From: Sanyastnella coralliicola
GTDB lineage: Bacteria > Bacteroidota > Bacteroidia > Flavobacteriales_D > Sanyastnellaceae
NCBI RefSeq assembly: GCF_030845195.1
Contig: NZ_CP132543.1
Span: 3,303,501-3,367,500, forward strand
Length of the DNA stretch: 64,000 bases
Direction: 5' to 3'
In this document: positions 14,607-59,773 of the stretch, in pieces
How the letters are laid out: each line of letters opens with the position of its first letter
How positions within the stretch are numbered: position 1 is the first letter of the stretch
Notes under the pieces: model-generated
What the model was told of the DNA's origin: nothing
The model's database searches: none
The model's input: the letters and a program-made list of their open reading frames with translations, nothing else
Translations under genes and position numbers: made by a program

Positions 14607-15660
14607 ACTTAAATCGATTGAGATCGGTTTCTGGATGCAATGGCGTCCCTTCAAAGATGTGATTCAGTAACTCTCCCGCCAATAATGGTGCGATTAACAC
14701 ACCTCGTGTACCTAGTCCGTTGAATGACCATATTTGTGGTTCCAGCTCACCTAAAAGTGGTCTGCGGTCTTTGACGGTCGGTCGTAATCCCACCTTATGC
14801 TCCACTACAGACACCTCGGCATCGAGCATGAGTTGAACCTTCTCCAATAGCATCTCACGTACCTCATCAGACTTTTCTAGATCGTCTTGACGCCAATCAT
14901 AGCTTGCACCGAGTTTGTACCCCCCTCCTTCATAGGGCAAGAGCCATTTTCCGTTGTTTGCGGTGATGTCACGCTGAAAGTCTTTCACGTTGACATCAAG
15001 CACCTCGCCCTTATTGGTCTGAAGTGGCAGATCTTGATACCACGAGAGATTACGAGCACTCGTCCCCATGGCGATGATGAGGTGATCGGCTTGCCAATCT
15101 TTGTAGACTACACCAGCAGTAATCCCTTTTTCCGGCGTCCGGCGTCCGGCGTCCGTTTTTAGATACTCTGGGTCAAACTCCTCTTCTAGGAGTCGCGATT
15201 CCGCGCTAGCGAAATCACGAACCGATTTTAGAAAACGAGGAAGATGCAGATACCCAGCTTGATCAACCAATCCCGCACCGTGCGGAGCCTTAATACGATT
15301 TGGAAGTTCATTTACCGCTTTAATCCAGGGCATGCCCTCGGTCACTCGCTTCGCCCATAAGTCAGCGTACTCTTGATTCGGGAAGACACGCATCACCGGG
15401 CGATCAAAGTAGAATTGGCTTTCAAGAGACTTCTCCCAGGCAGGATACTTGGTTTGAAGCGCCTCCATGCATTCTTGATCACGCCAAACGGAAATGATCT
15501 TACGGAAGCTCACCGGATTCCACATACCGGCAGCAACCATTGAGGCACTCAACTTCCAGCCATTGTCGATGATACCGACAGACAGCCCTCGGGATTGCGC
15601 TTCACACGCCAACACAGATCCTGCCAGACCTTGTCCGACAATGATCAGGTCAAACCTCAT
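14605..15660 (-). CDS. FAD-dependent amine oxidase (DAO/ThiO-like)
   Basis: 351 codons. N-terminal dinucleotide fold [28 protein letters not shown] (GxGxxG then acidic residue) and C-terminal [16 protein letters not shown] and [17 protein letters not shown] match the D-amino-acid/glycine oxidase superfamily. The substrate is unknown; its position after kbl suggests glycine or a related amine. Its ATG overlaps the kbl stop by 4 bp (translational coupling). A 7-bp tandem repeat at 15132-15155 encodes a hydrophilic insert (DAGRRTPEK) near residue 172; a change of one unit would shift the frame. Confidence 0.8.
15132..15155. repeat. 7-bp tandem repeat CCGGCGT x 3.4 inside the FAD oxidase gene
   Basis: Three perfect CCGGCGT units plus CCG. 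Seven is not a multiple of three, so the peptide reads through three frames and unit gain or loss would disrupt the gene. Confidence 0.85.
15199..15212 (-). repeat. TCGCTAnCGCGGAA motif (exact)
   Basis: Inside the FAD oxidase gene, co-oriented with it, read as FASAE. Confidence 0.8.
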
Positions 15661-16853
15661 GCTTCTTTGAGTACGCCCAGCTCCTTCGCTACCTTTTCGA
15701 AGGCAGCCAGTGCTTTATCAAGATGTTCTTGGGTGTGCGCCGCACTCAACTGAACGCGGATACGCGCTTGCTCTTTTGGCACTACCGGGTAGAAGAAACC
15801 AATCACGTAAATACCTTCTTCGAGCAGGCGGTCAGCCATTACTTGCGACAACTTCGCATCGTATAGCATCACCGGTACAATGGCCGAGTCACCGTCTTTA
15901 AAATCAAGACCAATTTTGCGCAAACCGTCTTTGAAGTAGTTGGTGTTCCATTCAAGTTTGTCGCGCAATTCAGTGGTCTCATTCAAAATATCAAACACAG
16001 CAATCGAAGCACCCACGATCGATGGCGCCAATGAGTTTGAGAACAAGTACGGACGAGAGCGCTGACGTAGCATTTCGATGATCTCTTTACGACCAGTAGT
16101 GAATCCACCCATCGCGCCACCAAGCGCCTTTCCGAGCGTTCCGGTGATGATGTCAACACGACCTAGCACACCGCGAAGTTCAACTGAACCACGTCCTGTC
16201 TTGCCAATGAAACCAGTCGCGTGGCATTCATCAACCATCACAAGTGCATCATACTTATCTGCGAGATCACAGATCTTGTCAAGCTGCGCAACGTATCCAT
16301 CCATAGAGAATACACCATCGGTTACGATGATCTTGAAGCGAGCTCCTTCAGCTGCCTGAAGTTGCTTCTCCAGATCTTCCATATCGTTGTTCGCGTAGCG
16401 GTAGCGCGCTGCTTTACACAAGCGAACCCCGTCGATGATAGATGCGTGATTCAATGAATCAGAAATGATCGCGTCATCTTTCGTCAACAATGGTTCAAAT
16501 ACACCACCATTGGCATCGAATGCCGCTGCATATAGAATCGTGTCTTCCGTATGTAGGAAGTCAGCAATTTTCTCTTCGAGCGTTTTATGGATGTCTTGCG
16601 TTCCACAGATGAAACGCACAGAGCTCATTCCAAACCCATGTGTGTCTAGTGTAGCCTTCGCCGCGTCTAGCACTTTCGGATGTGATGAAAGTCCGAGGTA
16701 GTTGTTTGCACAGAAGTTCAGCACCTCTTCTCCTGTTGACACCTTGATCAAGGCGTCTTGAGGACCAGTGATGATTCGTTCCTTCTTGAACAGTCCGGCT
16801 TCTTCGATTTGCTTCAGTTCTTCCTGAAGATGTTCTTTCATCTTTCCGTACAT
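15657..16853 (-). CDS. kbl: Glycine C-acetyltransferase (2-amino-3-ketobutyrate CoA ligase)
   Basis: 398 codons. PLP enzyme of the alpha-oxoamine synthase family; cleaves 2-amino-3-oxobutyrate with CoA into glycine and acetyl-CoA (threonine catabolism). PLP lysine K242 in [22 protein letters not shown] with the aspartate contacting the pyridine nitrogen; NHASIIDG near residue 136. The length matches E. coli Kbl. No threonine dehydrogenase is adjacent in this window. The FAD oxidase overlaps its end. Confidence 0.94.
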
Positions 16854-16892
16854 GGCTATGGGATTAAATTCGGGTTCAAATTTCAGGTAAAA

Positions 16893-17813
16893 TTACCGAT
16901 ACACAATGTGGCAGCGATGATCTTTCAATTCAAGTTCAACTTCTGCTCCTAATCTCACGGGCAGATTCATCGCCTCATGTCCAAATGGAAGTCCGAAAGC
17001 CACCGGTATGTTCAGGGTTTGCGAGAATCGTTCAATGATCTGTCGTTGGTTATACCCAAATGGGTTATCGCTGCTAAAACCGAAAGATTTTGTGTTGTCA
17101 CGCATGTCTGAGAACTGCCCTATGAGTAGTCCGCTCAGCTTCTCAAACTCACCAGACAGAGCGAAGTTATTCATCATTCGATCCAAGTGATAGAGCATCT
17201 CGTCAAGATCTTCAATGATCAATATTTTGCCTGAGAGATCAGGAAAGTACGGTGTGCCTCGAAGACTGTAAAGCACGCTTAGGTTACCTCCGATGAGCTT
17301 CCCTTCTGACTTTCCCTCTTTAACAACCTCAGCTTCGACATTCCATCCCGTGGTTTTCCCTTGAAGTTCATTAAAAAAGGCATCCACCACCTCCGGTGGG
17401 GAAGTGAGCAAGGTGGTTCCTACCGGAGAATGCAAAGAACTGATACCATTGACGGTTGTCCAGGAGTGAATCGCAGTGACATCGCTAAAACCACATAACC
17501 AAGGGAAGCGGTCGCGTTCCGCCGTTAGGCGAAGAAAAGGAAGCAAACGCCCAGCACCATAGCCCCCACGCATAAATAGCACTGCCTTTACATCATCAGA
17601 TGCCATCAACGCATTCAATAGTTGAGCACGGTGGGCATCATCACCGGCCAATTGACCATCGCGCTCAAACAGTCCATCTGGAACCTGAACACGAAAGCCT
17701 CTAGCCTCTATCAACTGTGAAACAGCGGCCGCTTGTTCAGGCGTGCACCAACGGCTTGCAGCGGCTAAGGCGATCGTATCTCCTTGATTTAAGAATGGTG
17801 GATTGACATGCAT
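16893..17813 (-). CDS. LD-carboxypeptidase (S66 family)
   Basis: 306 codons from ATG 17813 (a longer frame to 17855 would cross the metG promoter). Removes the terminal D-Ala from muropeptide tetrapeptides in the cytosol during peptidoglycan recycling. Motifs: IALAAASRWC at the start, the nucleophile region AVLFMRGGYGAGRLLPFL and GTPYFPDLSGKILIIEDLDE. Possible leaderless start: CAGATTTG 5 nt before ATG. Divergent from metG, with overlapping promoters; kbl follows 39 bp later. Confidence 0.88.
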   Translation of the reverse strand: MHVNPPFLNQGDTIALAAASRWCTPEQAAAVSQLIEARGFRVQVPDGLFERDGQLAGDDAHRAQLLNALMASDDVKAVLFMRGGYGAGRLLPFLRLTAERDRFPWLCGFSDVTAIHSWTTVNGISSLHSPVGTTLLTSPPEVVDAFFNELQGKTTGWNVEAEVVKEGKSEGKLIGGNLSVLYSLRGTPYFPDLSGKILIIEDLDEMLYHLDRMMNNFALSGEFEKLSGLLIGQFSDMRDNTKSFGFSSDNPFGYNQRQIIERFSQTLNIPVAFGLPFGHEAMNLPVRLGAEVELELKDHRCHIVYR

Positions 17814-17814
17814 A

Positions 17815-17845
17815 CCTGCAAATCTGCTGAAAAGAAATAATTTTG
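17815..17845 (+). promoter_or_regulatory. Promoter of metG, overlapping the divergent LD-carboxypeptidase start
   Basis: CCTG (17815-17818), 19-bp spacer, TAATTTTG (17838-17845); 20 nt before the metG ATG. The minus-strand box CAGATTTG (17826-17819) of the divergent gene lies within it, so the two promoters should compete. Confidence 0.45.
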
Positions 17846-17865
17846 CGGCGCACAATTAGAAGACA

Positions 17866-20934: not shown

Positions 20935-20968
20935 AAATTAAGATTTTGTAAACCTGATTCTCAGGGGT

Positions 20969-20976
20969 CAAAAGTA
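20969..20976 (-). promoter_or_regulatory. -7 box of asd
   Basis: TACTTTTG on the minus strand, a full TAnnTTTG match, 34 nt before the ATG; no clear -33. Confidence 0.45.
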
Positions 20977-21007
20977 GTATATTTAGGCCCCTTAGCCGCC
21001 TTGTACA

Positions 21008-24000
21008 ATGCAACTGATGCGTCTTTTCCTTTTGTTGATCCTATGCAGCGTTTATTCGCTGGCCTCCGCGCAATTGACGGATGATTTCTCTGATGGTGAT
21101 TTCACCACGAATCCAGTCTGGAATGGGAATACAGAGAACTTCATTATCAACGGCAATCAACGCTTGCAGCTGAATGACGATGAGGCTTCCCAGAGTTATC
21201 TGTCTACTACTTTCGCTAGCGCGGAATTGGCTAACCAAGAATGGACCGTTTGGGTAAAACACTCATTCTCTGGCTCTTCCAACAACTTCACACGCTACTA
21301 CCTCAGCTCTCAAGCTGAGAACCTTTCCTTCTCTGGAGCTTCCAGCGCTGGAGCACAAGGTTATTTCCTGCTTTTTGGAGAATCTGGCTCTGAAGATGCC
21401 ATCCGACTTTTCCGGGATGATAACATGGGCGACCCAGTAGTAGAAATTGCAGCAGGAACAGCGGGACTAGTAGCCGGTTCTTTTGAAATCAGAGTACGTG
21501 TCACACGAGATGAATTAGGCAACTGGCAAATCTTTGTTGACCCAGATGGCGGCACGAACTACCAGCTCGAAGCTTCTGGAATGGACGATACGTATTCAGT
21601 AGCCACAACGCTTGGAGTCGTTTGTAATTACACCGTCAGTAATGCTGATGCCTTTCAATTTGACGACATCTATTTCGGTGCTCAATTCGTTGATGAAATT
21701 GCTCCCGAATTGCAGTCCATCACTACCATCAGCGCGAATGAGATTGACATCGTTTTCAATGAGGCTGTTGATGAGGCTAGCGCCGAAACGGTGGGTAATT
21801 ATTCAGTTTCGAATGGCGTTGGCTCTCCTACCACAGCTGAACGTGACGAAGTTGATCAGTCTTTGGTTCACCTGACTTTTGGAAACAACTTCCCTGAGAA
21901 TACAGAAGTAACCTTGACTGCGAATGGAGTGGAGGATCTTTCAGGCAATAGTCTTGAGGGGGGCACCTTGAACTTCACTTGGGTAGTAAGCGCTATCGCG
22001 GAAGCAGGTGACATCGTCATCAACGAGATCTTCCCTGACCCAACTCCAGCCCTAGGCCTGCCAGAGTTTGAATTCGTCGAGTTCTTCAATGCCTCTGACA
22101 ACGCCTTTGACTTGGCCAATTTTGAATTCGTCAATACGAACACTTCGAAGATCCTTCCTTCCTACCCTTTGTTACCGGGAGAATACGTGATCCTATGTGA
22201 TGATGAGGCAGCTGAAGCGCTGGAAGCTTTCGGTCCGGTGATAACTGTTGAGTCATTCACCGCTCTGAGCAATTCCGGCGATAGCCTCACCCTATTAAGC
22301 CCGGAAAGCACCATTCTCGACATTGTTGCCTACACTGACGATTGGTATGGAGCCTCAGAATTCTCCGATGGTGGAATCACCTTGGAACGCATCAATCCAT
22401 TCGCAGGATGTTCTGGGTCTGGAAACTGGAGTGCTTCACAAAGTTTCTCTGGAGGAACTCCTGGAGCCGTGAACAGCATATTCAACGACGCGCCAGATGC
22501 AACAGCACCGACGATTGCTTCGTTCTTCTTCCCAGCTGATAACAGTGTGCTCATTCAATTTGACGAACGCTTGGCCGATGATCAACTAGACTTGATTACC
22601 ATCGACATCGCGCCGGCCATTGCGATATCATCCACAGCGCTGGCAAATGACCTCAGTGCCATCGAAATCGTATTTGATAGTGAATTCGAAAGTGGCACTA
22701 GTTACACGATCACTTTGTCAAACGTAGTTGACTGCTCCGGTAATGCAAGTACTGATGACCTCATCATTGAATTTACGCGTGGCTCTGTACCTCAAGAAGG
22801 CGACTTAATCATGACCGAGATCATGGCCGCCCCAAATGCTGAAATTCCTTCACCGAACGCTGAGTACGTCGAAGTATTCAACCGTTCTGAGAATTTACTC
22901 GAGCTCACAGACCTATTGCTGAATGACGGATTCTTCGAAGAGCAAGTCGTTCTTGAACCCGGCGCCTACCTTATCATTACTGACAGCGAAGACTTGATTG
23001 ACTTCTTGTTATTCGAGAATGTAGTGGGAATGGTTGAATTCCCGGGTCTGACAAATGGCGGAAGAACCCTCACCTTGACCGATGCAGCCCTCAACGTCAT
23101 CGATGAAGTTAGCTACGAAGACAGCTGGTACAACGACCCATCCAAGGATGACGGAGGCTACAGCTTGGAGTTGATTAATCTTGAAGACCCATGTAGCGAC
23201 CAAGACAACTGGACGGCTTCACAAGCAACCACCGGACATACGGCTGGAGCTATTAATTCAGTTTACGACGAGACTCCAGATGAGGCATTTCCTGCAGTGC
23301 TTTACGCCCTCGTTTCTGGAGCCAACAGCATCGACATCTTCTTCGACGAGCAACTTGATTTGATCAGTGAAGAAACATTGGAAGCTGAGGTCGGTATCGA
23401 AACGAACGGAACCTTTGAATCATTGGGGTATCTGCAAGGCGCGACTTCCCTTATTCCTCCTACACAGCGATCAATGCGCATCGAATTCGACGGTGGGTTC
23501 TCAGCAGGAGTAACCTACATATGTCAACTCACTGGAGCCACTGATTGCTGGGGAAATTTGAACGAGGACGTTGAGTCGGTTCGTTTCGCCGTACCAGAAG
23601 ATGCGGAGGCTGGAGATTTGATCATCAATGAGATTCTCTTCGACCCTTATACAGATGGGACAGACTTCGTTGAAATCTACAACCGCTCAGAAAAGAACAT
23701 CAGTATTCTGAACTGGCAGTTGGGTAATGAAGCCAACGGAATACCTGAGAATTTCAAGCCTATTTCTGAGGTACCATTTATCATCTATCCAGGCGAATAT
23801 TTCGTCTTCACAGAATCGGTGTCTGGAGTTACTGCATTCTACCCGAACGCAGTGGAGACGGCTATCATTGAAGTAGACGACCTTCCAACATACAGCAACA
23901 ACAGCGGAGTGGTTGTGCTCACCGACAGTCTATTCACCATCAGTGACCGTGTTCCATACGACGACAGCCAACACTACCCATTGTTGGATGATACAGAAGG

Positions 24001-24448
24001 CGTTTCTCTTGAGCGCCTCAGCGCAGAACGAGATTCAGACGATGAAACCAACTGGCACAGTGCTGCAAGCATCGAAGGCTTCGCAACGCCGGGTTATATG
24101 AATAGTCAGTTCGATCAAGCCATGTCAGAGAGCGTGGTGAGCCTATCTCCAGAAGTTTTCTCACCTGACAACGATGGCTTTGAAGACAATCTGTTGATCA
24201 GTTACAACCTTGGTCGTTCCGGATTCACTGGAAACATCCAAATCTTCGATGATGGTGGTCGTTTTATCCGACGCCTCACCAACAATGAGACTTTGGGAAT
24301 TGAAGGCACCTTGAGCTGGGATGGAATTACTGACCATGGCGAGAAGGCCCCTATTGGCATCTACGTCATCATTTTCGAGGTTTTCCACCCTGATGGAGAA
24401 GTCATCTTTGAAAAATTGGTCTGCACGCTGGGGCACCAGTTAGATTAA
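21008..24448 (+). CDS. Large secreted lamin-tail-domain protein (T9SS-type cargo)
   Basis: 1146 codons; the second ATG (21017) may be the real start. Signal peptide MRLFLLLILCSVYSLASAQ. Residues ~25-225 look like a laminin-G/lectin-like jelly roll. Then Big_5-like Ig domains alternate with three lamin-tail domains starting near residues 335 (GDIVINEIFPDP), 598 (GDLIMTEIMAAP) and 869 (GDLIINEILFDP). The C-terminus (~1045-1146) is a FlgD-Ig/gliding-type domain (SPDNDGFEDNLLISY...GIYVIIFEVF), a type-B-like T9SS signal. Probably surface-exposed; adhesive or nucleic-acid-related function not shown. Two TCGCTAnCGCGGAA-type motifs lie inside. Confidence 0.8.
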   Translation: MQLMRLFLLLILCSVYSLASAQLTDDFSDGDFTTNPVWNGNTENFIINGNQRLQLNDDEASQSYLSTTFASAELANQEWTVWVKHSFSGSSNNFTRYYLSSQAENLSFSGASSAGAQGYFLLFGESGSEDAIRLFRDDNMGDPVVEIAAGTAGLVAGSFEIRVRVTRDELGNWQIFVDPDGGTNYQLEASGMDDTYSVATTLGVVCNYTVSNADAFQFDDIYFGAQFVDEIAPELQSITTISANEIDIVFNEAVDEASAETVGNYSVSNGVGSPTTAERDEVDQSLVHLTFGNNFPENTEVTLTANGVEDLSGNSLEGGTLNFTWVVSAIAEAGDIVINEIFPDPTPALGLPEFEFVEFFNASDNAFDLANFEFVNTNTSKILPSYPLLPGEYVILCDDEAAEALEAFGPVITVESFTALSNSGDSLTLLSPESTILDIVAYTDDWYGASEFSDGGITLERINPFAGCSGSGNWSASQSFSGGTPGAVNSIFNDAPDATAPTIASFFFPADNSVLIQFDERLADDQLDLITIDIAPAIAISSTALANDLSAIEIVFDSEFESGTSYTITLSNVVDCSGNASTDDLIIEFTRGSVPQEGDLIMTEIMAAPNAEIPSPNAEYVEVFNRSENLLELTDLLLNDGFFEEQVVLEPGAYLIITDSEDLIDFLLFENVVGMVEFPGLTNGGRTLTLTDAALNVIDEVSYEDSWYNDPSKDDGGYSLELINLEDPCSDQDNWTASQATTGHTAGAINSVYDETPDEAFPAVLYALVSGANSIDIFFDEQLDLISEETLEAEVGIETNGTFESLGYLQGATSLIPPTQRSMRIEFDGGFSAGVTYICQLTGATDCWGNLNEDVESVRFAVPEDAEAGDLIINEILFDPYTDGTDFVEIYNRSEKNISILNWQLGNEANGIPENFKPISEVPFIIYPGEYFVFTESVSGVTAFYPNAVETAIIEVDDLPTYSNNSGVVVLTDSLFTISDRVPYDDSQHYPLLDDTEGVSLERLSAERDSDDETNWHSAASIEGFATPGYMNSQFDQAMSESVVSLSPEVFSPDNDGFEDNLLISYNLGRSGFTGNIQIFDDGGRFIRRLTNNETLGIEGTLSWDGITDHGEKAPIGIYVIIFEVFHPDGEVIFEKLVCTLGHQLD
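21213..21226 (+). repeat. TCGCTAnCGCGGAA motif (exact)
   Basis: Inside the lamin-tail protein gene, read as FASAE. A one-mismatch copy lies at 21990-22003. Confidence 0.8.
21990..22003 (+). repeat. TCGCTAnCGCGGAA motif (one mismatch)
   Basis: GCGCTATCGCGGAA, read as SAIAE in the lamin-tail protein. Confidence 0.7.
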
Positions 24449-24464: not shown

Positions 24465-25169
24465 GTGCAGCCCATTGCCCTCCTTTTAGACATAACACCG
24501 AGACTTCGCGAAGTGGATCACCTCTTCGAACCTTGGATGACTTGGTTCCTTTTGGGTGCATTAATTCTTGTGGTACTAGTTAGGGTGCAATACCCTCAGT
24601 ACATCCAACTCCTGGGCTACAACTTCACCAACTACCGCATCGCCAAGCAAACCTTCATCGACAACGAATACCAGATCAAGCCTGACTGGCTCTTCATGTT
24701 CCCGGTGTTGGTCATTGGTCACGCCTTGTTTCTGTTTTTGTTTCTCAAGAGTTCTGCTTCATTCGCTATCGCGGAAGGGGTCGGTCCGTTTTTGACCATG
24801 TGTTTCTTGGTGGCCATGGTGTTTATGTTAAAGATTGTTGCCATGCAATTGGTTTCTACCATTGGTAAACCGGGCAACAGTCTGAAAGTCTACTACGGAA
24901 ACTCAATTTTAGTCTCGGAATTAACCGGAAGCGTGTTACTTCTCCTTTCCATTGCAGCCTCCCTTTCTGAGGGTGGTCCAGCTCCCCTTCTGATCTATGT
25001 TGGGATTGGAATATACTTGTTGAGCTATTTGTTCCGTTTGTTCAGGGGTGTCATAGCGGCCATTGAAAACCGCATCTCTTTGAACTATATAATTTTGTAT
25101 CTTTGCACCCTCGAAATTCTACCCTTCGTGGTGCTGTTGAAGGTGTTTTCCACGGTTTACGGCGGTTAG
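24465..25169 (+). CDS. DUF4271 integral membrane protein
   Basis: 234 codons from a GTG start. Six or so membrane helices after an N-terminal segment (HLFEPWMTWFLLGALILVVLVRVQYP). I recognise the DUF4271 family, restricted to Bacteroidota, whose members usually sit directly upstream of a HemD-like gene, as here (37 bp). The function is unknown. The start codon is 4 nt after a CACCTTTG box. A TCGCTATCGCGGAA motif lies at 24763. Confidence 0.75.
   Translation: MQPIALLLDITPRLREVDHLFEPWMTWFLLGALILVVLVRVQYPQYIQLLGYNFTNYRIAKQTFIDNEYQIKPDWLFMFPVLVIGHALFLFLFLKSSASFAIAEGVGPFLTMCFLVAMVFMLKIVAMQLVSTIGKPGNSLKVYYGNSILVSELTGSVLLLLSIAASLSEGGPAPLLIYVGIGIYLLSYLFRLFRGVIAAIENRISLNYIILYLCTLEILPFVVLLKVFSTVYGG
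24763..24776 (+). repeat. TCGCTAnCGCGGAA motif (exact)
   Basis: In the DUF4271 gene, read as FAIAE. Confidence 0.8.
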
Positions 25170-28059: not shown

Positions 28060-29649
28060 GTGATTCAGAAAGATAGAATTGTCCCCCTTCTTTATCAGGC
28101 AGGGCTAATCCTTGCTGTGGTGTCGATGCCCTTCTCGAATTTCGGGATGAGTGTGTCTTCATTCTGGCTTCTCGGAACCTGGATCATCGACCAGCTTACT
28201 TCTGAAAAACAGAACCTTAAGTACCGCTGGGCAAAGGCCATTTCAAGTGGTTACTTCTGGATCCTGATCTCTGTCTTCCTCATCCACATCATTGGCTTGC
28301 TGTGGACGCAAGACTTCGGTTATGCGATGAAAGACATACGGATTAAGCTCCCTATACTTCTCTTCGTTACCATCTTCTTCACCGCCAGACCTATTGAAGG
28401 ATTGAGCTTACGGCGTATGTGGCTCTTCTTTGTGATGGCCTGCGGAGCGGCAGTTATTGGATGTGCATTGATTCCTCTCGGCATCTGGGATAAGGAAGTC
28501 AGCAACATCCGTGACATCAGTGTTTTCATCTCACACATTCGATTCAGTATGCTGCTCGTGTTTGCATCGGCTGTGTTGATGTTGTGGATCTCTGAAGGAC
28601 GCAAAATCTTGCTCTGTTTGGTGCTGTTAGCACTGAATCTCGGCTTCTTGTGGATCATCGAATCCGTTACAGGAGCGGTACTCCTGACAGCAGTGATTAT
28701 TCTTTTCCTTGTGAGTGAAGAAGCGAGCGTAATTAAGCCAAGATGGCGCAAGATGCTTCGCTGGACGATTCCTTCTATGATGTTAATTGGCATGATTGCC
28801 ATTGGGTACATGACCTATGATTACTTCAACCTTCCAGAGAACCACGCTGAAGGACTTGAAACGCACACAGCCCAAGGAAACCCCTATGAGCACCATCCAG
28901 ATAACACCATGCGTGAAAACGGGCACTTTATCTGGAGGTACATTGCCTGGGGAGAGTTGCGTTCAGGATGGGAAGAGCGAAGCACCTTAGCATACGACAG
29001 TACGGATGCTCGTGGGCAAGCGCTCTATGGCACCTTGGTTCGATACCTCACTTCAAAAGGCCTACGCAAAGACCTTGAAGGAGTGCGCGCGCTAACAGAA
29101 GAAGATGTGAGGCTTGTGGAGTCAGGTATCCCTTCCGTTCTTGAAATTGAACACAGTGGTTTACGTCGTCGACTCGACAAGATTTTCTTCGAAATATCGA
29201 ACGTCATGAATGGCGGTAACCCAAGCGGAAATTCTGTGACCCAACGATTAGAATTCTGGAAGGCCGGAAGACACATCATCGCCAATCACCCTATACTCGG
29301 TGTGGGAACCGGAGATGTCAAAGATGCTTTTGCTACCGCATACGACGAGATTGATTCTTCACTGGAAGAACCTTACCGATTGCGTGCGCACAATCAATAC
29401 ATGACCTTCTGGATTGCCTTCGGGATTTGTGGCGTGTTGTTACTCCTACTCGTGTTGTTTATGCCTCTCGGAGTAGTGGGAAGTGAACGTGGTTTCCTCT
29501 TTACTACCTTCTGCTTGATTTTGGCGTTGAGCTTCCTGACGGAAGACACCCTAGAGACGCAAGCGGGAGTTACCTTCTTTGCGTTTTTCGCTGCTCTTTT
29601 CAGCGGTCAACGACTCGCCTTCCACTCCAGGATTCGTCCGAACACCTGA
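28060..29649 (+). CDS. O-antigen ligase/polymerase-like membrane protein (Wzy/WaaL)
   Basis: 529 codons from a GTG start. About eleven membrane helices with one large periplasmic loop (~residues 265-425) containing NPYEHHPDNTMRENGHFIWRYIAWGELR and SVTQRLEFWKAGRHIIANHPILGVGTGD, followed by RLRAHNQYMTFWIAFG, the usual order in O-antigen ligases. It should join or polymerise surface glycans in the periplasm. Two LPS-type glycosyltransferases lie next to it on the other strand; its last 43 bp overlap the end of the convergent GT9 gene. Confidence 0.82.
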   Translation: MIQKDRIVPLLYQAGLILAVVSMPFSNFGMSVSSFWLLGTWIIDQLTSEKQNLKYRWAKAISSGYFWILISVFLIHIIGLLWTQDFGYAMKDIRIKLPILLFVTIFFTARPIEGLSLRRMWLFFVMACGAAVIGCALIPLGIWDKEVSNIRDISVFISHIRFSMLLVFASAVLMLWISEGRKILLCLVLLALNLGFLWIIESVTGAVLLTAVIILFLVSEEASVIKPRWRKMLRWTIPSMMLIGMIAIGYMTYDYFNLPENHAEGLETHTAQGNPYEHHPDNTMRENGHFIWRYIAWGELRSGWEERSTLAYDSTDARGQALYGTLVRYLTSKGLRKDLEGVRALTEEDVRLVESGIPSVLEIEHSGLRRRLDKIFFEISNVMNGGNPSGNSVTQRLEFWKAGRHIIANHPILGVGTGDVKDAFATAYDEIDSSLEEPYRLRAHNQYMTFWIAFGICGVLLLLLVLFMPLGVVGSERGFLFTTFCLILALSFLTEDTLETQAGVTFFAFFAALFSGQRLAFHSRIRPNT

Positions 29650-32957: not shown

Positions 32958-33031
32958 GGCTTGATTACTTTTGGGCAAAAATAGCACTTAGACTTTAAAT
33001 GCAATTCATTCGACACTGATTTTTGACAGGC

Positions 33032-37504: not shown

Positions 37505-37681
37505 AATCGTCGTAATTGGTTCACCGGTTGGGCGTTACGCATTTTTACGAGCGAATTCAGTTATGGTTACACACACGAAATAACAACACGTACAAAGTAA
37601 TCATCAACGACAGTAAAACGCTTGTCGGACGTGGGTTTAAACGACTTAAGTTCGTTGAACTCAAACATCAAACTACATCCC

Positions 37682-50243: not shown

Positions 50244-50247
50244 CGGC

Positions 50248-51219
50248 ATGGCACGAATCCTTACCGGAATACAAAGTACTGGAACACCGCACCTAGGAAA
50301 TATTTTGGGTGCAATTCTACCTGCGATTGAGTTGGCGAAACAGCCTGAAAACGACTCATTCTTGTTCATCGCTGACATGCACTCTTTGACGCAAATCAAG
50401 GATGCAGAAGTGTTGCGTGAAAACACCTACTCGGTGGCTGCCACGTGGTTGGCTTTCGGATTAGATACGGATAAGTCTGTTTTCTATCGCCAAAGCGACA
50501 TTCCTGAAGTGACGGAGCTCGCATGGTACCTTTCGTGTTACTTCCCATACCAGCGTTTGACCTTGGCGCACTCGTTCAAAGACAAGGCGGATCGCCTCGA
50601 AGATGTGAATGCCGGTTTGTTCGTCTACCCTATGCTCATGGCAGCTGATATCTTGCTCTATGATGCTGATTTTGTGCCTGTGGGTAAAGACCAACTCCAG
50701 CACCTCGAAATGACGCGCGATGTGGCGAGCCGTTTCAACCATAAAATGGGAGAAACCTTCGTCATTCCTCAAGACAAACTCAAAGAGGAGACCATGTATG
50801 TACCGGGTACTGACGGCAACAAAATGTCAAAGTCTCGCGGCAACATCATCGACATCTTCATGGAAGACAAGCCGTTGAAGAAGTCGCTCAACAAGAACAT
50901 TATTACAGACGCCACTCCACTCGAGGATCCTAAAGATCCAGACTCTGCGGTGGTTTATAAACTTTATGAATTGATCGCTAGCGCGGAAAAAGTGCAATCC
51001 ATGGCTGATCAATTACGCGCCGGCGGTTACGGCTGGGGCCACGCCAAAAAAGACCTCCTCGAAGCCATCATCGAACGCTTCGGAGAAGCACGCGAAAAGT
51101 ACCACGCCCTCATGGCTGACCGCTCAAAAATCGACGAAGAACTCGCGAAAGGAGCAGAAAAAGCACGTGTTGTTGCGAGAGGGGTTTTGGAGCGTGTAAG
51201 GGAGAAAACCGGTTATTAA
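50248..51219 (+). CDS. trpS: Tryptophanyl-tRNA synthetase
   Basis: 323 codons. Class I synthetase charging tRNA-Trp. HIGH equivalent TPHLGNILGA at ~residue 12, LYDADFVPVGKDQLQHLEMTRD in the middle and KMSKS in GTDGNKMSKSRGNI (~residue 193). Normal length. A TCGCTAGCGCGGAA motif at 50975 encodes IASAE. The gene stands between heptad arrays 1 and 2, which end 22 nt before it and begin directly after its stop. Confidence 0.96.
   Translation: MARILTGIQSTGTPHLGNILGAILPAIELAKQPENDSFLFIADMHSLTQIKDAEVLRENTYSVAATWLAFGLDTDKSVFYRQSDIPEVTELAWYLSCYFPYQRLTLAHSFKDKADRLEDVNAGLFVYPMLMAADILLYDADFVPVGKDQLQHLEMTRDVASRFNHKMGETFVIPQDKLKEETMYVPGTDGNKMSKSRGNIIDIFMEDKPLKKSLNKNIITDATPLEDPKDPDSAVVYKLYELIASAEKVQSMADQLRAGGYGWGHAKKDLLEAIIERFGEAREKYHALMADRSKIDEELAKGAEKARVVARGVLERVREKTGY
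50975..50988 (+). repeat. TCGCTAnCGCGGAA motif (exact)
   Basis: In trpS, read as IASAE. Confidence 0.8.
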
Positions 51220-51685: not shown

Positions 51686-51766
51686 TTTTCACCCAAGTAA
51701 CCCCATTTAAAGTCCCAAAAAACAAAGACTTCACAAACGTCAACCAAAATCTTGTAGTCGGTAAAA

Positions 51767-51800: not shown

Positions 51801-51806
51801 AAAAAG

Positions 51807-52448: not shown

Positions 52449-52491
52449 TGCTTGGGGTATCTTCGGCATTCTATTGCACGACAAAGGTAAT

Positions 52492-52499
52492 TGAGCCGC
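52492..52499 (-). promoter_or_regulatory. -7 box of nfu
   Basis: TACCTTTG on the minus strand, full TAnnTTTG match, 43 nt before the ATG. Confidence 0.45.
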
Positions 52500-52561
52500 A
52501 CTTCTAAACGAAACAAGTTTAGTAGGAAGCTTGTTCTTTTGTGCACCAGAACCTGAATCCT

Positions 52562-55500
52562 ATGAGAAAGCTCCTGCTCCTGCTGATGCTCTTGAGCACC
52601 ACTGTTGTTTTCGGTCAAAACACCTACCCGGTGAATGGCACCTACGAAAAGAACTCTTCCGTTTATGTATTGACCAACGCCACAATTCACATCACTGCTG
52701 ATCAGGTAGTAGAAGGAGACTTGTTGGTTGCCAATGGTAAGATCGTAGCCTCTGGTGAGGTGGCTAAGGTAGAAGGCATGGTAGAGGTAGACTGTTCTGG
52801 TCTGCACATCTACCCCTCATTCATTGATCTGTACAGTGACTACGGTACTCCGGAAATTCCAAAAACGAAGCGTGAACCTGGTCCTCAATACTTGAGCAAT
52901 AAGAAAGGACCTTACGGTTGGAACCAAGCGATTAAACCAGAGATTCGAGCAGCTGAAGATTTCACGCACAGCAGTGGTTCAGCGAAGTCGCTTCGCAGCG
53001 CTGGATTTGGATCACTTTTGATTAACCAACAAGACGGAATCGCCCGAGGAACTGGAGCTTTTATTACCCTCGGAGACAACGAAAATCACGACCTCATCGC
53101 TTCCGATGCAGGAGCATTCTATGCATTTCGTAAAGGGTCATCTACTCAGAACTACCCGAGTTCATTGATGGGTGTAATTGCCTTGCTTCGACAAACATAT
53201 TGCGATGCGAATTGGTATGCTACGAGCGATGACGTCAATGAAGGGAACCTCAGTTTGGAAGCCTGGATTGCGAATCAAGAACTTCCACAATTCTTTAAAG
53301 TACGCGACCGACTAGATATTCTCAGAGCAGATAAAGTGGGCGATGAGTTCGGCGTTCAATACAACTTCATCGGAAATGGAGATGAGTACCAACGCCTCGA
53401 AGCCATCAAAAATAGCGGCGGTGCCCTCATCATTCCTCTTGATTTTCCTGGAGCGTATGATGTGAGTGATCCATACTTAGCTCGTATGATTGGTTTGGAT
53501 GAATTGCGTCACTGGGAATTGGCCCCGTCAAATCCAGGACTACTCATTGACGCTGGTATCCAAGTCGCGTTCACCGCTGAAGGATTGAAAGATCCCGGAA
53601 TGCTGATCGGACAAGTACGAAAAGCCATTGAAGCCGGACTTTCAGAGGAAGACGCGCTACGTGCTCTGACCTCAACTCCAGCCAACTTGGTTGGAATGGA
53701 AGACATGGTGGGAACACTTCAAAATGGCATGCTCGCCAACTTCATCCTGACTTCAGGACCTCTTTTTAATGAAGGAAGCAAGATTGTGGAGAACTGGGTG
53801 CAAGGTGAACAGTACATTCTCATTGACCGTACTATTCCAGATCTGAGCGGTGAATACTCACTTACCTTCAACGATAAGAGCTGGAACCTCAAAGTGAAAG
53901 GTGAACCTGGCAAACACAAGGGATCTTTCGAAGTCATTACTCAAGGAGAGGAAGGCGCCGACACGGTGATGGTGAAAGTGAAAATCAAACAGGAAGGCGA
54001 AATGATCGGTCTTCAGTTTGGTCCTACTGAAGGTGTTTTTGACGGCACGTACCGTCTGAACGGAAACGCCTTTAAAGGTCGTATCTGGAAAGGTAAAGGA
54101 GAAGATCCAAGCGGCGAGTGGATTGAATGGGCAGCAGTAAAAGACAACGAGGTGGAGAAACCAAAAGAAGCGAAGCGTTCCGCGCTAGCGGCTGAAGGAA
54201 CAGACACCTTAGGCACCAACATGCCTGAAATCACCTACCCATTTGTTGCCTACGGTTGGAAAGAACAACCCGCGCAAGAAATATTGCTCATTTCAAATGC
54301 CACCATTTGGACATGCGAAGAAGACGGCATCATCGAAAACGGACAGTTGCTCATTGCCGATGGCAAGATCAAGGCCGTTGGGAAGTCCATCGACCTTAAT
54401 GCGTTGTACGGACGAACACTTCCTGACATCATACAATATGACGCTCAGGGAGCTCACGTCACACCTGGGATCATTGACGAGCACTCACACATTGCCATTT
54501 CACGTGGTGTGAATGAAGGTACCCAAGCAAGCTCAGCTGAAGTAAGCATCGCCTCAGTGGTGAACAGCGAAGACGTCAACATTTATCGTCAGCTCAGCGG
54601 TGGGGTGACAGCAGCTCAATTGCTTCATGGCTCGGCCAATCCAATTGGCGGTCAAAGCGGTATCATCAAAATGCGCTGGGGAAGCACGCCAGAGGAAATG
54701 CTCATCAAGACCGACGCACCTTTCATCAAATTCGCCCTTGGTGAAAACGTGAAACAATCGAATTGGGGTGAGTACTACCGTTCACGTTTCCCGCAAACAC
54801 GTATGGGTGTGGAGCAAGTATTCTACGATCACTTCATCAGAGCCCGTGAATATGGTGAGGCTTGGGATGCCTACGAGGAAGAAATGGCCAACCTGACACG
54901 TCGTCAACGTCGTAAAGGTGAGTTCCCAACCGCCCCAAGGCGAGATCTTGAGTTAGAGACACTCTTACAAATCATCGAAAGTGAACGCTTTGTTTCATGT
55001 CACAGCTACCGTCAAGATGAGATTAACATGTTGATGCACGTGGCTGATTCAATGGGCTTCACGCTCAACACCTTCACGCACATTTTGGAAGGATATAAAG
55101 TAGCCGACAAAATGTTCGAGCACGGTGCTGGAGGATCGAGTTTCTCTGACTGGTGGGCCTACAAATTCGAGGTGAAAGATGCCATTCCACATAACGGAGC
55201 CATCCTGTGGGAACAAGGAGTAATTACCGCTTTCAATAGTGACGACGCCGAGATGGCGAGACGTCTCAATCAAGAAGCGGCAAAAGCAGTGAAGTACGGA
55301 GGCGTACCTGAAGAAGAGGCCTTGAAGTTCGTTACGCTTAACCCGGCAAAACTGCTTCACCTCGACGACCGTATGGGGTCGATCAAGGTGGGTAAAGATG
55401 CTGATATCGTTATTTGGACTGATCACCCGTTGAGCATCTACGCTCAGGCTCGCATGACCTTTGTTGATGGTCGTCGACTTTACGACCAAGAACGTGATCA

Positions 55501-55642
55501 AGAACTCCGTCAAGAAATGCGTGAAGAACGCGCCCGACTTGTTCAGCAAATGTTGAACGATGGAGGTGAAGGAAAAAAGAAACCGATGGAACGAGTTCCA
55601 CACCGCTATCACTGTGATAGTGCAACTGAAGAAATCCGATAA
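52562..55642 (+). CDS. Secreted tandem amidohydrolase, N-terminal half degenerate
   Basis: 1027 codons from ATG 52562 (signal peptide MRKLLLLLMLLSTTVVFGQ). Two amidohydrolase domains. The first (~30-420) has lost the metal-binding HxH: where it belongs, the sequence is FIDLYSDYGTPEIP. A beta domain (~435-545) follows. The second (~570-1000) keeps GIIDEHSHIAISRG (HxH near 640), FVSCHSYRQDEI, NTFTHILEGYKVADKMFEHG and FNSDDAEMARRL, and is probably active (imidazolonepropionase-like; substrate unknown, perhaps cyclic dipeptides or peptides). Periplasmic. Followed after 3 bp by a second, degenerate amidohydrolase. Confidence 0.82.
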   Translation: MRKLLLLLMLLSTTVVFGQNTYPVNGTYEKNSSVYVLTNATIHITADQVVEGDLLVANGKIVASGEVAKVEGMVEVDCSGLHIYPSFIDLYSDYGTPEIPKTKREPGPQYLSNKKGPYGWNQAIKPEIRAAEDFTHSSGSAKSLRSAGFGSLLINQQDGIARGTGAFITLGDNENHDLIASDAGAFYAFRKGSSTQNYPSSLMGVIALLRQTYCDANWYATSDDVNEGNLSLEAWIANQELPQFFKVRDRLDILRADKVGDEFGVQYNFIGNGDEYQRLEAIKNSGGALIIPLDFPGAYDVSDPYLARMIGLDELRHWELAPSNPGLLIDAGIQVAFTAEGLKDPGMLIGQVRKAIEAGLSEEDALRALTSTPANLVGMEDMVGTLQNGMLANFILTSGPLFNEGSKIVENWVQGEQYILIDRTIPDLSGEYSLTFNDKSWNLKVKGEPGKHKGSFEVITQGEEGADTVMVKVKIKQEGEMIGLQFGPTEGVFDGTYRLNGNAFKGRIWKGKGEDPSGEWIEWAAVKDNEVEKPKEAKRSALAAEGTDTLGTNMPEITYPFVAYGWKEQPAQEILLISNATIWTCEEDGIIENGQLLIADGKIKAVGKSIDLNALYGRTLPDIIQYDAQGAHVTPGIIDEHSHIAISRGVNEGTQASSAEVSIASVVNSEDVNIYRQLSGGVTAAQLLHGSANPIGGQSGIIKMRWGSTPEEMLIKTDAPFIKFALGENVKQSNWGEYYRSRFPQTRMGVEQVFYDHFIRAREYGEAWDAYEEEMANLTRRQRRKGEFPTAPRRDLELETLLQIIESERFVSCHSYRQDEINMLMHVADSMGFTLNTFTHILEGYKVADKMFEHGAGGSSFSDWWAYKFEVKDAIPHNGAILWEQGVITAFNSDDAEMARRLNQEAAKAVKYGGVPEEEALKFVTLNPAKLLHLDDRMGSIKVGKDADIVIWTDHPLSIYAQARMTFVDGRRLYDQERDQELRQEMREERARLVQQMLNDGGEGKKKPMERVPHRYHCDSATEEIR
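54178..54191 (-). repeat. TCGCTAnCGCGGAA motif (one mismatch, antisense to its gene)
   Basis: CCGCTAGCGCGGAA on the minus strand inside the plus-strand amidohydrolase gene, which reads SALAA there. Confidence 0.75.
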
Positions 55643-55645
55643 GCC

Positions 55646-56935: not shown

Positions 56936-56994
56936 GCTTATGGCCTAAGGCTTAAGCCAATACTTACGCCATACGCCTTAGGCCTTACGCCTAT
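56933..56994. repeat. Heptad array 3
   Basis: Left arm GGCTTAT, GGCCTAA, GGCTTAA, GCC (56935-56958); loop AATACTTA; right arm CGCCATA, CGCCTTA, GGCCTTA, CGCCTAT. It overlaps the stop codons of the two convergent genes either side. Same plan as array 2 with one heptad fewer. Confidence 0.88.
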
Positions 56995-58901
56995 TCTAAT
57001 CGCACATAAAGCTCCTTCGGATACTTCACCGAGTACTTCAGCTTGAACGCTTTTTGCTTACCGCTTGGGATTTCATAGTCCCAAACAACACGGCCGGTGG
57101 CTTCGTTTAGGTGGCCTCCATCGAGGGTTTCCGCTTCGATTTCTACCTCTTCAGATGTGGTAACTGGGATGTGATCATCTATCTGAATCTTGATGCGCTC
57201 GCGCTTGTTGTTGCGCACCACGTAGCTCCATTCTCTGACGTCTTTGCGGGTGCCTTGGATGGCTTGATTTTTACGATCGGCTTTGATGCGACGGCGCTTG
57301 ACTTCGATGCGCTCATCTTGACCGAGAGATAAGGTGAGCGTGTCCTCCACGTATTGCAATCCAAGGTGGGCTTGACCTACGTAGCTGTCTTCAAAGTAAA
57401 TGTTCATGTTTCCGTCGAAGAGGTTGTAGTCTTCCCAATCAGTGATGCGCGCGGTGAGGTATACGGATGGGTCAAGTTTAGGTGTACACTGGTAGACGAA
57501 ATCAGCGGGAATCATGATGTCTTGCATCTTCACAGCATAGCGCGTTCCATCGCTTGGGATGTTGTACTTCGCTTCGATTTCGAACTTCGTTGAAGTGGGT
57601 GTATAGGCAATAGCAACAGGCGCATAGTTGAGATCGAGGTTGTTGTCTTTCTTAGCTCCTCCGAATAGGCGTCCATCGCGGTTGATCGCTACATCGTCTG
57701 AGGTAATGACTACTTCGTTCAAACTCGCCGTGTTTGAGTTCATGTAGACATTCATATTGTACGTACTGATCGGCAGTGATTCTGCTTGGTACCCTACGTA
57801 ATTGTATGAAAGCGTCGTCGCGCCTTGAGGTACATTCAAGTTGTAGTAGCCATTCACATCAGTTACTGTTCCCGTGGTTGTACCCGGCACCACAATCGTT
57901 GCCCCGATGAGTGGTTGTCCGTTCTCGTCAAGAAGTCTTCCCTGCACATTCTGAACACTTGGGTTGTACGCTTGAGCTCTCAATCCTTGATTCAAATCAC
58001 CGCGGTATCCCGTTGGTTGTTGCTGTTGGTATACCGGCTGTTGATTGATATACCACGGAGATAGATTGGGCTTCGTGTGATTTCGCGAAGGAGTTCCTGT
58101 TGAGATGATCAGGTCAATGTCTTCCCAGTCTTCACCGGAATTCTGGAATACATGCGCGTTTTGAATCAACTCCAAAGGCTCACTAACTGAATTTACTCGT
58201 GCATCATACCCGGTCGTCCAGCCTGCATTTGCTACTTGGTAGGTCAAATTGAATTCAGCGTACTGCTGCTTCTTAGAATTGATGCGTACCATGTACTGAA
58301 GTTCTTGCTTCGTCTGAATGCCACCGAGCATGTTCAACTCATTATTGATCTCGTACACGCGTACATTCATTTCGTCGATGCGATCTTGAATTTCAAGTCG
58401 CTTCGTGCGAATATCGAGGTAACGTTGGCGCACGAATTCTGCGGCTTCTTTGAGTTTGGTGATTTCGATTCCGTCTTCCTTGCTTCCGAAAATTTGATTC
58501 GCTTGAAGCATCTGTTCCTCGCGATCATAAATCTGGAGCCAACCTTGTTCACGAGCAATTTCTTGTTGCAACTTGGTGCGTTCCTTTTCGAGCTTCTTGC
58601 GATCTTCAGCGACATCCCAACCGGCAATGGTGTCTACTTTGTAGCGGTGGTAGCTCGCGAGTACCGTGAAGTCGCCTTTTCCGTTGAATAGAATCTGAGA
58701 AGGAACGATTGCGGTGTTCAATTCATCAAAGATCAGCAGGCTCGTTCCTGCGGGGATGCTCGCTTTTCCACTGCGAACAACTTGAGCTCCTGATTCGAAA
58801 ACGGTCGCTTCCGAAATGCTCGTTTTTACTTTGGTTTCTTTGTCTTTGGCTAGCGCCGAAACGGTCACTGCCATGAAGAGGAGAATAAGCATGCGTTTCA
58901 T
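56991..58901 (-). CDS. DUF4139/DUF4140 (MuiA-like) protein with carboxypeptidase-like insert
   Basis: 636 codons, signal peptide MKRMLILLFMAVTVSALA. DUF4140 N-terminus (ISEATVFESGAQVVRSGKASIPAGTSLLIFDEL, ~30-125), coiled coil (~105-205), the start of DUF4139 (~215-275; YQVANAGWTTGYDARV), then a carboxypeptidase-regulatory-like insert (~318-400; VQGRLLDENGQPLIGATIVVPGTTTGTVTDVNGYYNL), then the rest of DUF4139 (~430-636; WDYEIPSGKQKAFKLKYSV). The insert looks like the plug-proximal domain of TonB receptors. Periplasmic; function unknown. Confidence 0.82.
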   Translation of the reverse strand: MKRMLILLFMAVTVSALAKDKETKVKTSISEATVFESGAQVVRSGKASIPAGTSLLIFDELNTAIVPSQILFNGKGDFTVLASYHRYKVDTIAGWDVAEDRKKLEKERTKLQQEIAREQGWLQIYDREEQMLQANQIFGSKEDGIEITKLKEAAEFVRQRYLDIRTKRLEIQDRIDEMNVRVYEINNELNMLGGIQTKQELQYMVRINSKKQQYAEFNLTYQVANAGWTTGYDARVNSVSEPLELIQNAHVFQNSGEDWEDIDLIISTGTPSRNHTKPNLSPWYINQQPVYQQQQPTGYRGDLNQGLRAQAYNPSVQNVQGRLLDENGQPLIGATIVVPGTTTGTVTDVNGYYNLNVPQGATTLSYNYVGYQAESLPISTYNMNVYMNSNTASLNEVVITSDDVAINRDGRLFGGAKKDNNLDLNYAPVAIAYTPTSTKFEIEAKYNIPSDGTRYAVKMQDIMIPADFVYQCTPKLDPSVYLTARITDWEDYNLFDGNMNIYFEDSYVGQAHLGLQYVEDTLTLSLGQDERIEVKRRRIKADRKNQAIQGTRKDVREWSYVVRNNKRERIKIQIDDHIPVTTSEEVEIEAETLDGGHLNEATGRVVWDYEIPSGKQKAFKLKYSVKYPKELYVRLE

Positions 58902-58974
58902 GGTCTGTCATTTTTAAGATTGATGCCCCTCCGTACACGATTCCACAAAAAGGGTTCATCTGAATGCCATTGCT

Positions 58975-58982
58975 TACCTTTG
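58975..58982 (+). promoter_or_regulatory. -7 box of the S24-type regulator (leaderless type)
   Basis: TACCTTTG, 5 nt before ATG 58988. Confidence 0.5.
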
Positions 58983-58987
58983 AATCC

Positions 58988-59773
58988 ATGTCGTTCTTAG
59001 GAAAGAATCTTCGCATTTTACGCAAGCAACAATCGCTCACTCAAGGACAGCTGGCTGAGAAGCTAGGCCTGAATAGGAGCGTAATTGGTGCGTATGAAGA
59101 AGGTCGTGCTGAGCCTCGTCTTCAGACCTTAATCGCTATCGCGGAATTCTTCAATATTTCTTTGGATGATTTGGTCATTCGTTCTTTAGATGACACCCCC
59201 GCTAGCGCGGAATTCAACTCAGAAATCCCATTGAAAGTCCTCTCCATTGCCGTAGACAAAAGCAGTGAGGAGGAATTGATCACAGTGGTTCCAGTTAAGG
59301 CGGCCGCAGGTTACCTCGATGGCTATGGCGATTTGGATTTCATTGAAGGACTTCCACAGTTTAGCATGCCTGTAAAGGAGATCCCTCAAGACCTCTCATT
59401 GCGAATGTTTCAGGTAGAAGGAGAAAGCATGCACCCGCTTCCAGAAGGGAGCTACGTGCTTTCCAGTTATGAGAATGACATCCGAAATGCGGGTGGTGGT
59501 CATCCATACATCGTGGTCACCAAAAATGATGGTATCGTTTTCAAACGAGTAGAGAACCTCATCGGCAGCAATGGCACGTTCCGCTTGATCAGCGAGAATC
59601 CGGAGTATGCCCCTTATGAGGTTGCGGCAGATGAGATTCTTGAGATGTGGAGAGCACGTGCATTCATGATGTTTGACTTCCCCGTCACTCCACTCAGTAA
59701 GGTGGACTCGTTGAGGATTCGTGAAATCACCGATAGACTCTCCCGAATTGAATCTAAACTTAGTGAGGACTAG
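58988..59773 (+). CDS. LexA/CI-like regulator: XRE helix-turn-helix plus S24 peptidase
   Basis: 261 codons from ATG 58988. HTH_3 domain at residues 1-65 (LRILRKQQSLTQGQLAEKLGLNRSVIGAYEEGRAEP), a linker, then an S24 domain: candidate cleavage site Ala107-Gly108 in VKAAAGYL, nucleophile Ser147 in VEGESMHP and Lys186 in GIVFKRV. The full set predicts self-cleavage and de-repression, as in SOS-type repressors; the trigger and regulon are unknown. No prophage genes are near. Two copies of the 14-bp motif lie 66 bp apart in its linker region (59133, 59199). Confidence 0.87.
   Translation: MSFLGKNLRILRKQQSLTQGQLAEKLGLNRSVIGAYEEGRAEPRLQTLIAIAEFFNISLDDLVIRSLDDTPASAEFNSEIPLKVLSIAVDKSSEEELITVVPVKAAAGYLDGYGDLDFIEGLPQFSMPVKEIPQDLSLRMFQVEGESMHPLPEGSYVLSSYENDIRNAGGGHPYIVVTKNDGIVFKRVENLIGSNGTFRLISENPEYAPYEVAADEILEMWRARAFMMFDFPVTPLSKVDSLRIREITDRLSRIESKLSED
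59133..59146 (+). repeat. TCGCTAnCGCGGAA motif (exact)
   Basis: In the S24-type regulator gene, read as IAIAE. Confidence 0.8.
59199..59212 (+). repeat. TCGCTAnCGCGGAA motif (one mismatch)
   Basis: CCGCTAGCGCGGAA in the same regulator gene, read as PASAE, 66 bp after the previous copy. Confidence 0.75.

Follow-up and report, generated by a model that had tools for sequence, protein, structure and literature searches.

The motif TCGCTANCGCGGAA, a 14-mer scattered through the genes of Sanyastnella coralliicola, is a small DNA hairpin rather than a fixed word. The element consists of a T-rich tract, a 3-bp stem that encloses the loop TANC, and the tail GAA behind the second arm of the stem. It was noticed in a 64,000-bp stretch of the single contig of this genome (4,097,636 bases; stretch G000:C1:3303501-3367500), which is called the window here. 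We regard it as evenly balanced whether the hairpin belongs to an undescribed genome-wide mark: a DNA element defined by pairing, present in hundreds of copies within genes of one bacterial family, that has dialects varying among species and genera, would be read in its folded or melted form, and would distinguish the DNA of kin from other DNA.

A hairpin defined by base pairing

The window contains 15 matches to the 14-mer with up to two mismatches, compared with a mean of 1.01 and a maximum of five in 100 dinucleotide shuffles. A pattern search located the nine exact and four one-mismatch copies of the original prediction, all at the positions given there, and two additional two-mismatch matches at 12606 and 58847. 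In the match at 58847, the two changes restore pairing (GGC-TAGC-GCC). The one-mismatch copies at 21990, 54178, and 59199 deviate at the leading T alone, which brings the exact copies of the 13-bp core CGCTANCGCGGAA in the window to 12. Two compensated stem variants, at 21775-21787 and 58848-58860, were absent from the earlier list (Table 1).

The pairing was evaluated in a sample of 864 kb, made up of the window together with 40 further 20-kb stretches, which covers 21% of the genome. With only the loop TANC and the tail GAA fixed, the sample contains 815 sites, 231 of which are fully Watson-Crick paired, whereas about 13 are expected (1/64). The commonest arm pairs are CGC/GCG (183 sites), GGC/GCC (17), CAC/GTG (10), and CTC/GAG (3). 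When the other pairs are held, the outer pair is C-G in 183 sites, G-C in 17, and another combination in seven; the middle pair is G-C in 183, A-T in ten, T-A in three, C-G in two, and another in three; and the loop-closing pair is C-G in 183, T-A in one, and another in two. The same pattern is present in the sister genome G296 (metagenome-assembled genome ALOHA_ZT_13, 91.6% identical to S. coralliicola over 185 kb of aligned DNA), with the outer pairs C-G 76, G-C 7, and others 9, and the middle pairs G-C 76, A-T 4, T-A 3, C-G 1, and others 1. G·T pairs are rare, although they are one step from the common pairs: they account for 1 of 207 outer and 1 of 201 middle pairs in S. coralliicola, 2 of 92 outer pairs in G296, and none in the congener G297. 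They are rare in all three well-sampled dialects. The CGCG that the original prediction took for a core is composed of the last loop base and the 3' arm, and forms no independent core.

The predicted folding of four window elements is unremarkable (z of -0.4 to -1.0), and the case for a hairpin in S. coralliicola therefore rests on covariation. The predicted folding of three elements from G297 is unusual (z of -2.65 to -3.80).

The T-rich 5' flank accompanies the element in every context, including copies outside genes, with a T fraction of 0.40 in the 20 bases before it and 0.27 after it. In sense copies, the Ts are mostly at third codon positions, where every third base is T in 44-71% of cases compared to 28% at third codon positions overall. 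Because the T-rich tract precedes the hairpin, the element does not match a Rho-independent terminator, and of 222 near-exact sites in the sample no more than 24 are outside called genes, unlike the placement of terminators. A search of the window against Rfam at gathering cut-offs gave no matches.

Abundance and coding context

The exact 14-mer occurs 469 times in the whole genome (240 forward and 229 reverse), and the reversed control does not occur. The core has 183 exact copies in the 864-kb sample, about 0.21 per kb, which extrapolates to about 870 copies in the full genome. A codon-preserving null had been proposed as a check on the motif; run on the sample, 20 trials of synonymous-codon shuffling leave zero to three coding core copies, whereas 163 are observed. 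The protein-level repeat A-x-A-E is thereby ruled out as the cause, and we practically discount that such a repeat or an artefact of codon usage underlies the motif. Although 97 of the 163 coding copies share one frame, the copies fall into four classes of frame and orientation and occur outside genes as well, and their third codon positions are conserved.

The 183 core copies comprise 97 in sense frame 2, 11 in sense frame 1, 28 in antisense frame 0, 27 in antisense frame 2, and 20 outside called genes, a fraction that makes up 11% of the sample. The last number is an upper bound, because the simple gene caller used for context misses real genes, at least one of which is the open reading frame 29607-30644 around the copy at 30385, called intergenic. 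Copies beyond the frame that reads ASAE thus exist. The two such copies singled out in the original prediction were borne out: the one at 30385 is read in another frame, as SLARN, and the one at 54178 is antisense in its gene. As for the caveat that most copies are co-oriented with transcription, the sense total of 108, with 55 antisense copies, is near the 112.7 expected from codon usage. Individual frames nevertheless deviate: 27 copies are in antisense frame 2 where 3.8 are expected, 11 in sense frame 1 (1.0 expected), none in sense frame 0 (10.2 expected), and 28 in antisense frame 0 (46.4 expected).

The spacing of the copies is near Poisson, with a mean of 4.28 and a variance of 4.51 in 40 counts of 20 kb. 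The stretch L044 (G000:C1:2200001-2220000) has a lower GC content (0.435) and no exact core, whereas about four are expected; it encodes a GspE/PilB-type ATPase, very large proteins, and a protein judged by eye to be pilin-like. Among the 40 sampled stretches, one more is devoid of an exact core.

Table 1 Hairpin elements and variants in the window
Element	Position	Strand	Context
Possible loop variant CGC-TGGC-GCG-GAA, T-rich flank	12607..12619	+	antisense in gene 12576-13580
CGC-TAGC-GCG-GAA, T-rich 5' flank	15199..15211	-	sense in gene 14605-15660
CGC-TAGC-GCG-GAA	21214..21226	+	sense in gene 21008-24448
Compensated stem variant GGC-TAGC-GCC-GAA, new to list	21775..21787	+	sense in gene 21008-24448
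CGC-TATC-GCG-GAA	21991..22003	+	sense in gene 21008-24448
CGC-TATC-GCG-GAA	24764..24776	+	sense in gene 24465-25169
CGC-TAGC-GCG-GAA	30385..30397	-	in open reading frame 29607-30644, other frame (SLARN)
CGC-TAGC-GCG-GAA	33478..33490	+	sense in gene 33023-33997
Loop variant CGC-TGAC-GCG-GAA	34230..34242	-	sense in gene 33990-34685
CGC-TAAC-GCG-GAA	36992..37004	-	sense in gene 34811-37504
CGC-TAAC-GCG-GAA	38731..38743	+	sense in gene 37622-42298
CGC-TAGC-GCG-GAA	50976..50988	+	sense in gene 50248-51219
CGC-TAGC-GCG-GAA	54178..54190	-	antisense in gene 52541-55642
Compensated stem variant GGC-TAGC-GCC-GAA, new to list	58848..58860	+	antisense in gene 56991-58901
CGC-TATC-GCG-GAA	59134..59146	+	sense in gene 58964-59773
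CGC-TAGC-GCG-GAA	59200..59212	+	sense in gene 58964-59773

Conservation and origin of the copies

Comparison with the sister genome shows that the copies are kept by selection or drive on DNA, at the sites that could be aligned. Among 48 sites of S. coralliicola, 38 are identical in G296, two are still valid variants, and eight are lost; in the reciprocal view, 38 of 44 G296 sites are identical, two are valid, and four are lost. Third codon positions differ between the two genomes at 6 of 213 positions inside the element (2.8%); the flanks differ at 61 of 487, and the overall rate is 19.6%. The suggestion of a DNA-level signal is borne out by the shuffles, the spread over frames and antisense copies, the conservation of third positions, and the covariation of the stem.

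The origin of the copies was studied by querying the 163 coding sites against relatives that lack the motif, which yielded 66 query-by-source alignments, in which a site can appear up to three times. In 60 of these the relative has no gap at the site, which indicates that the copies were made by substitution. Only six alignments are gapped in the relative, and four are gapped in S. coralliicola, and the insertion of a mobile element was rejected on these grounds.

Dialects in related species

The exact 14-mer was found in 17 of 296 genomes of the phylum, with at most one copy in each genome beyond S. coralliicola. A shorter 11-mer, counted in 60 relatives, has 789 copies in S. coralliicola, 693 in G296, three in G297, and up to eight in each of the other 57. 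The congener G297, which lacks the window motif, carries an element of a different wording: a T-rich tract, C, five free bases, the loop AAAA, GAAA, or AGAA, the complement of the arm, G, and the tail GAT(G). A 400-kb sample of this genome (loci L179-L198) contains 94 elements, 51 sense, 16 antisense, and 27 outside called genes. The core form CGCNAAAGCGNNGGATG has 379 copies in the G297 genome (196 and 183 on the two strands) and none in reversed form, and it occurs at most once in each of 59 other genomes, S. coralliicola included. Of 149 sites with the loop and tail, not selected for pairing, 82 have six pairs, three have five, and the rest have fewer; the same test found no six-pair site in samples of seven other genomes. 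At positions 7977-8983 of locus L182, seven G297 elements are spaced 157-167 bases apart, apparently one per unit of a tandem repeat.

The element of G310, which belongs to a second genus, is composed of a T-rich tract, C, three free bases, then mostly C, a loop of TANC or TNAAC, the complementary arm, G, and GAT(G). Its sample of 359 kb (loci L412-L431) contains 86 elements, 31 sense, 24 antisense, and 31 outside called genes; the stretches were chosen around model hits, which inflates the density. Since G310 joins the loop of S. coralliicola to the tail of G297, a common origin would be the simplest reading. The stem is 3 bp long in S. coralliicola and 5-6 bp in G310 and G297. G310 elements with the loop TAAAC have the arm CGGCC in 19 of 22 cases, and 19 of the 36 elements with five-base loops are outside called genes; these elements may form a sub-family that serves a different role. 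Two alignments were built from these dialects: A1 holds 60 of the 94 G297 elements, with six of the seven tandem copies and the last 28 listed excluded, and A2 holds the 50 of 86 G310 elements that have four-base loops. Their members were picked for perfect stems, and pairing is therefore 100% by construction; the pairing tests in S. coralliicola and G296, G297, and G310 were not selected in this manner.

A covariance model of the G297 dialect (R1, 65 candidates per genome) and a model of the G310 dialect (R2, 18 candidates per genome) were used to search further. The R1 model gave 66 matches in G297, 22 in G310, and up to three in any other of 114 genomes of the family. Among 399 genomes of the order, the R2 model gave 18 matches in G310, 18 in G297, 13 in G045, and ten in G320, followed by four in S. 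coralliicola and three in G296, with any match in 47 genomes. G045 and G320 represent a third genus (g2) of the same order, which probably carries a dialect of the same plan. A 100-kb sample of G045 holds 44 arm placements of the form CG..CG-GATG, of which 16 are doubly paired, compared with 2.8 expected; the T fraction is 0.48 ahead of the paired placements and 0.31 ahead of the unpaired ones. The loops are mixed in length and sequence, and the first hairpin scan overlooked this genome, whose loops vary.

Hairpin scans tuned to the known dialects found no element in G353 (340 kb), G304 (100 kb), or G302 (100 kb), and G302 also lacks any match to the R2 model. Because the two models score few candidates and are fitted to two dialects, the absence of the element from other genomes is weakly tested. 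A hairpin scan of 73 loci of at least 8 kb gave no often-repeated single loop among the best 14 of 73; some loci exceed the mock in hairpins, with a best score of 5.0. The scan is weak, as the four positive-control loci show just 13-20 hairpins with four-base loops. The GC-rich genome G305 (59% GC) has 19 hairpin candidates compared with eight in the mock, and words resembling GGATTTGGCC are over-represented in its loci L234-L238. In G353 (loci L199-L218 and L079), the word TTCGCCCC is over-represented, occurring in 30 genes compared with 6.7 after synonymous shuffling; it has neither a hairpin nor an evident T-rich flank, and is possibly another ordinary dispersed word.

Alternative explanations

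It is rather unlikely that the element is a site of chromosome maintenance, at which the hairpin binds a protein of replication restart, recombination, or the nucleoid on single-stranded or cruciform DNA. Such a role would agree with the near-Poisson spacing on both strands, the conservation between sister species, and pairing at the DNA level. However, with the origin and terminus located from the GC skew of the sampled stretches, 88 of 183 copies are on the leading strand, which carries 54.1% of coding bases. No replication polarity was thus seen, unlike in Chi or KOPS (FtsK orienting polar sequences), and the Chi-like hotspot named in the original prediction fits badly. Furthermore, the dialects differ within one genus, and the dialect-tuned scans gave no element in several close relatives, which would be odd for a core chromosomal function. 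The lineage dialects would agree with a mark of self and non-self, in which a nuclease or another defence spares or attacks DNA according to the hairpin; we consider this improbable. The exact word of S. coralliicola is found in 60 viral stretches, once in each, and no listed virus carries many. However, the viral scan took in a single exact word, and one tag in about 5 kb is a low density for the protection of DNA. The word of G297 is found in 95 viral stretches, with one match in each of the 80 listed. A phage-borne motif was rejected, as the viral matches are single per stretch; they were attributed to chance without comparison to shuffled patterns.

We give little credence to a signal in RNA, in which hairpins in messenger RNA are bound by a regulator or govern the fate of the transcript. 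The conserved loops of the stem-loops and the excess of sense over antisense copies, 108 to 55 in S. coralliicola and 51 to 16 in G297, point in this direction, as do the elements outside called genes, which are over-represented in both G297 (27 of 94 elements in 15% of the sample) and G310 (31 of 86 in 11%). However, the sense total in S. coralliicola is close to the prediction from codon usage, antisense copies are many and nearly balance the sense copies in G310, G-U pairs are rare in S. coralliicola, G296, and G297, and no Rfam family reaches the cut-off in the window. The antisense copies and the near-absence of G·T pairs argue for an element of DNA rather than messenger RNA. Still less probable are relics of mobile elements, either palindromes of the repetitive extragenic palindromic (REP) type with their REP-associated tyrosine transposases (RAYT) or Rickettsia-type palindromes inserted in genes. 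A hairpin with a short fixed foot sequence resembles the REP layout, but most alignments are gapless in the relative, and the Ts flanking sense copies are mainly at third codon positions. Matches to Y1 transposases occur in 21 of 40 genomes, one each in S. coralliicola (weak), G296, G297, and G310 and none in G045. A RAYT or Y1 transposase is therefore unsupported as the common cause, as these genes are not clearly shared among the carriers.

A candidate self tag for DNA import

Among the functions offered in the original prediction, an uptake-type tag fits best. By analogy with the uptake sequences of Neisseria and Haemophilus, the hairpin may let the cell favour DNA of its own species in natural transformation, a proposal that we put forward tentatively and at slightly less than even confidence. 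A protein of the cell would read the folded or strand-separated form of the tag, and the T-rich tract of about 20 bases would ease local melting. Imported DNA that bears the tag would keep spreading it, and related species would drift to different dialects.

ComEC and DprA are encoded by all three genomes of the genus. Both families are widespread, as 10 of 14 control genomes match the one and 11 match the other, so their support is weak. Full GspE/PilB-type ATPases are matched in 5 of 40 genomes (G000, G296, G302, G335, and G339). This machine does not track the tag, since no full match was found in the carrier G297, and G302 has the ATPase but gave no element in 100 kb and no R2 match; a filament ATPase was thus rejected as the common cause. 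In the same order, transformation of Riemerella columbina is reported to be outcompeted by its own DNA, whereas an equal amount (1 µg) of R. anatipestifer or Escherichia coli DNA did not outcompete it and a tenfold amount did compete; AT-rich words are listed there as candidate signals, whose role the available part of that report leaves open (PMC7965970). Transformation of Riemerella anatipestifer is described as requiring ComEC, DprA, ComF, and RecA together with four functionally uncharacterised proteins (PMC8459023).

Several observations weigh against a kin tag of the uptake type. Neither transformation nor uptake data turned up for these organisms, nor did a receptor, and no full GspE/PilB-type ATPase was found in G297, one of the 40 genomes. 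Known uptake sequences are fixed words, whereas the stem of the tag covaries. At about 0.21 per kb, the tag is roughly three to four times sparser than the Neisseria and Haemophilus signals, for each of which about 1,500 copies are given (PMC2346458, PMC7811141). The copies in S. coralliicola are denser in genes of weak codon bias (47 in 157 kb, compared with 36 in 248 kb) and have no bias to gene ends among 149 copies. Elements of G297 and G310 are enriched outside called genes, unlike those of S. coralliicola.

Relation to known dispersed elements

The known dispersed address tags of DNA, namely uptake sequences, Chi, KOPS, and HIP1, are fixed words. HIP1 of cyanobacteria is likewise a very abundant short motif within genes, but it is a fixed 8-bp palindrome, whereas the tag combines a loop and a free stem with a tail that gives it direction. 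Chi and KOPS are dispersed and act at the level of DNA, and differ in their orientation to replication. The REP elements and bacterial interspersed mosaic elements (BIMEs), served by RAYT (TnpA-REP), are dispersed hairpins with a short fixed foot that are read as folded single-stranded DNA; they are mainly intergenic and linked to a transposase, whereas the tag is mostly genic and made by substitution, and has no clearly shared RAYT. A stem-loop survey of 40 bacterial genomes describes structured families as tending to be intergenic and, in its available part, does not name Bacteroides (PMC2267715).

The tag shares with uptake sequences hundreds of dispersed copies, far more than codon-preserving shuffles yield, along with dialects and no sign of replication polarity. 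The DNA uptake sequences (DUS) of Neisseriaceae occur in very many copies and as species dialects with a shared core (PMC3630211), and many are within genes in both orientations, one of which is favoured (PMC2346458). The uptake signal sequences (USS) of Pasteurellaceae have a short core and an AT-rich flank, with melting proposed at or beside the USS (PMC7811141); they have a preferred orientation in genes and are biased to gene ends, which the hairpin tag is not (PMC2346458). The differences lie in the definition of the element. A DUS is a fixed 10-12-mer that forms hairpins when two copies face each other, whereas the tag has a fixed loop and tail and a stem that is free as long as it pairs. 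A USS has a fixed core with a crucial GCGG and is denser, and it is not known to have a covarying stem. The tag is nearest in kind to the uptake sequences and is set apart by its definition through pairing; whether it forms a class of its own is evenly balanced. None of the papers listed in searches of the open-access literature, which leaves most subscription journals outside, describes a covarying hairpin tag distributed over the genes of bacteria.

A tag in coding DNA that is specified by pairing, with hardly any G·T, implies a protein that meets folded or melted DNA. Preference for self DNA is reported in the Flavobacteriales, with the signal not established in the available part of the report (PMC7965970), and the hairpin gives this order a concrete candidate signal. 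Relatives that differ in dialect, or in which no dialect was found, constitute a natural experiment.

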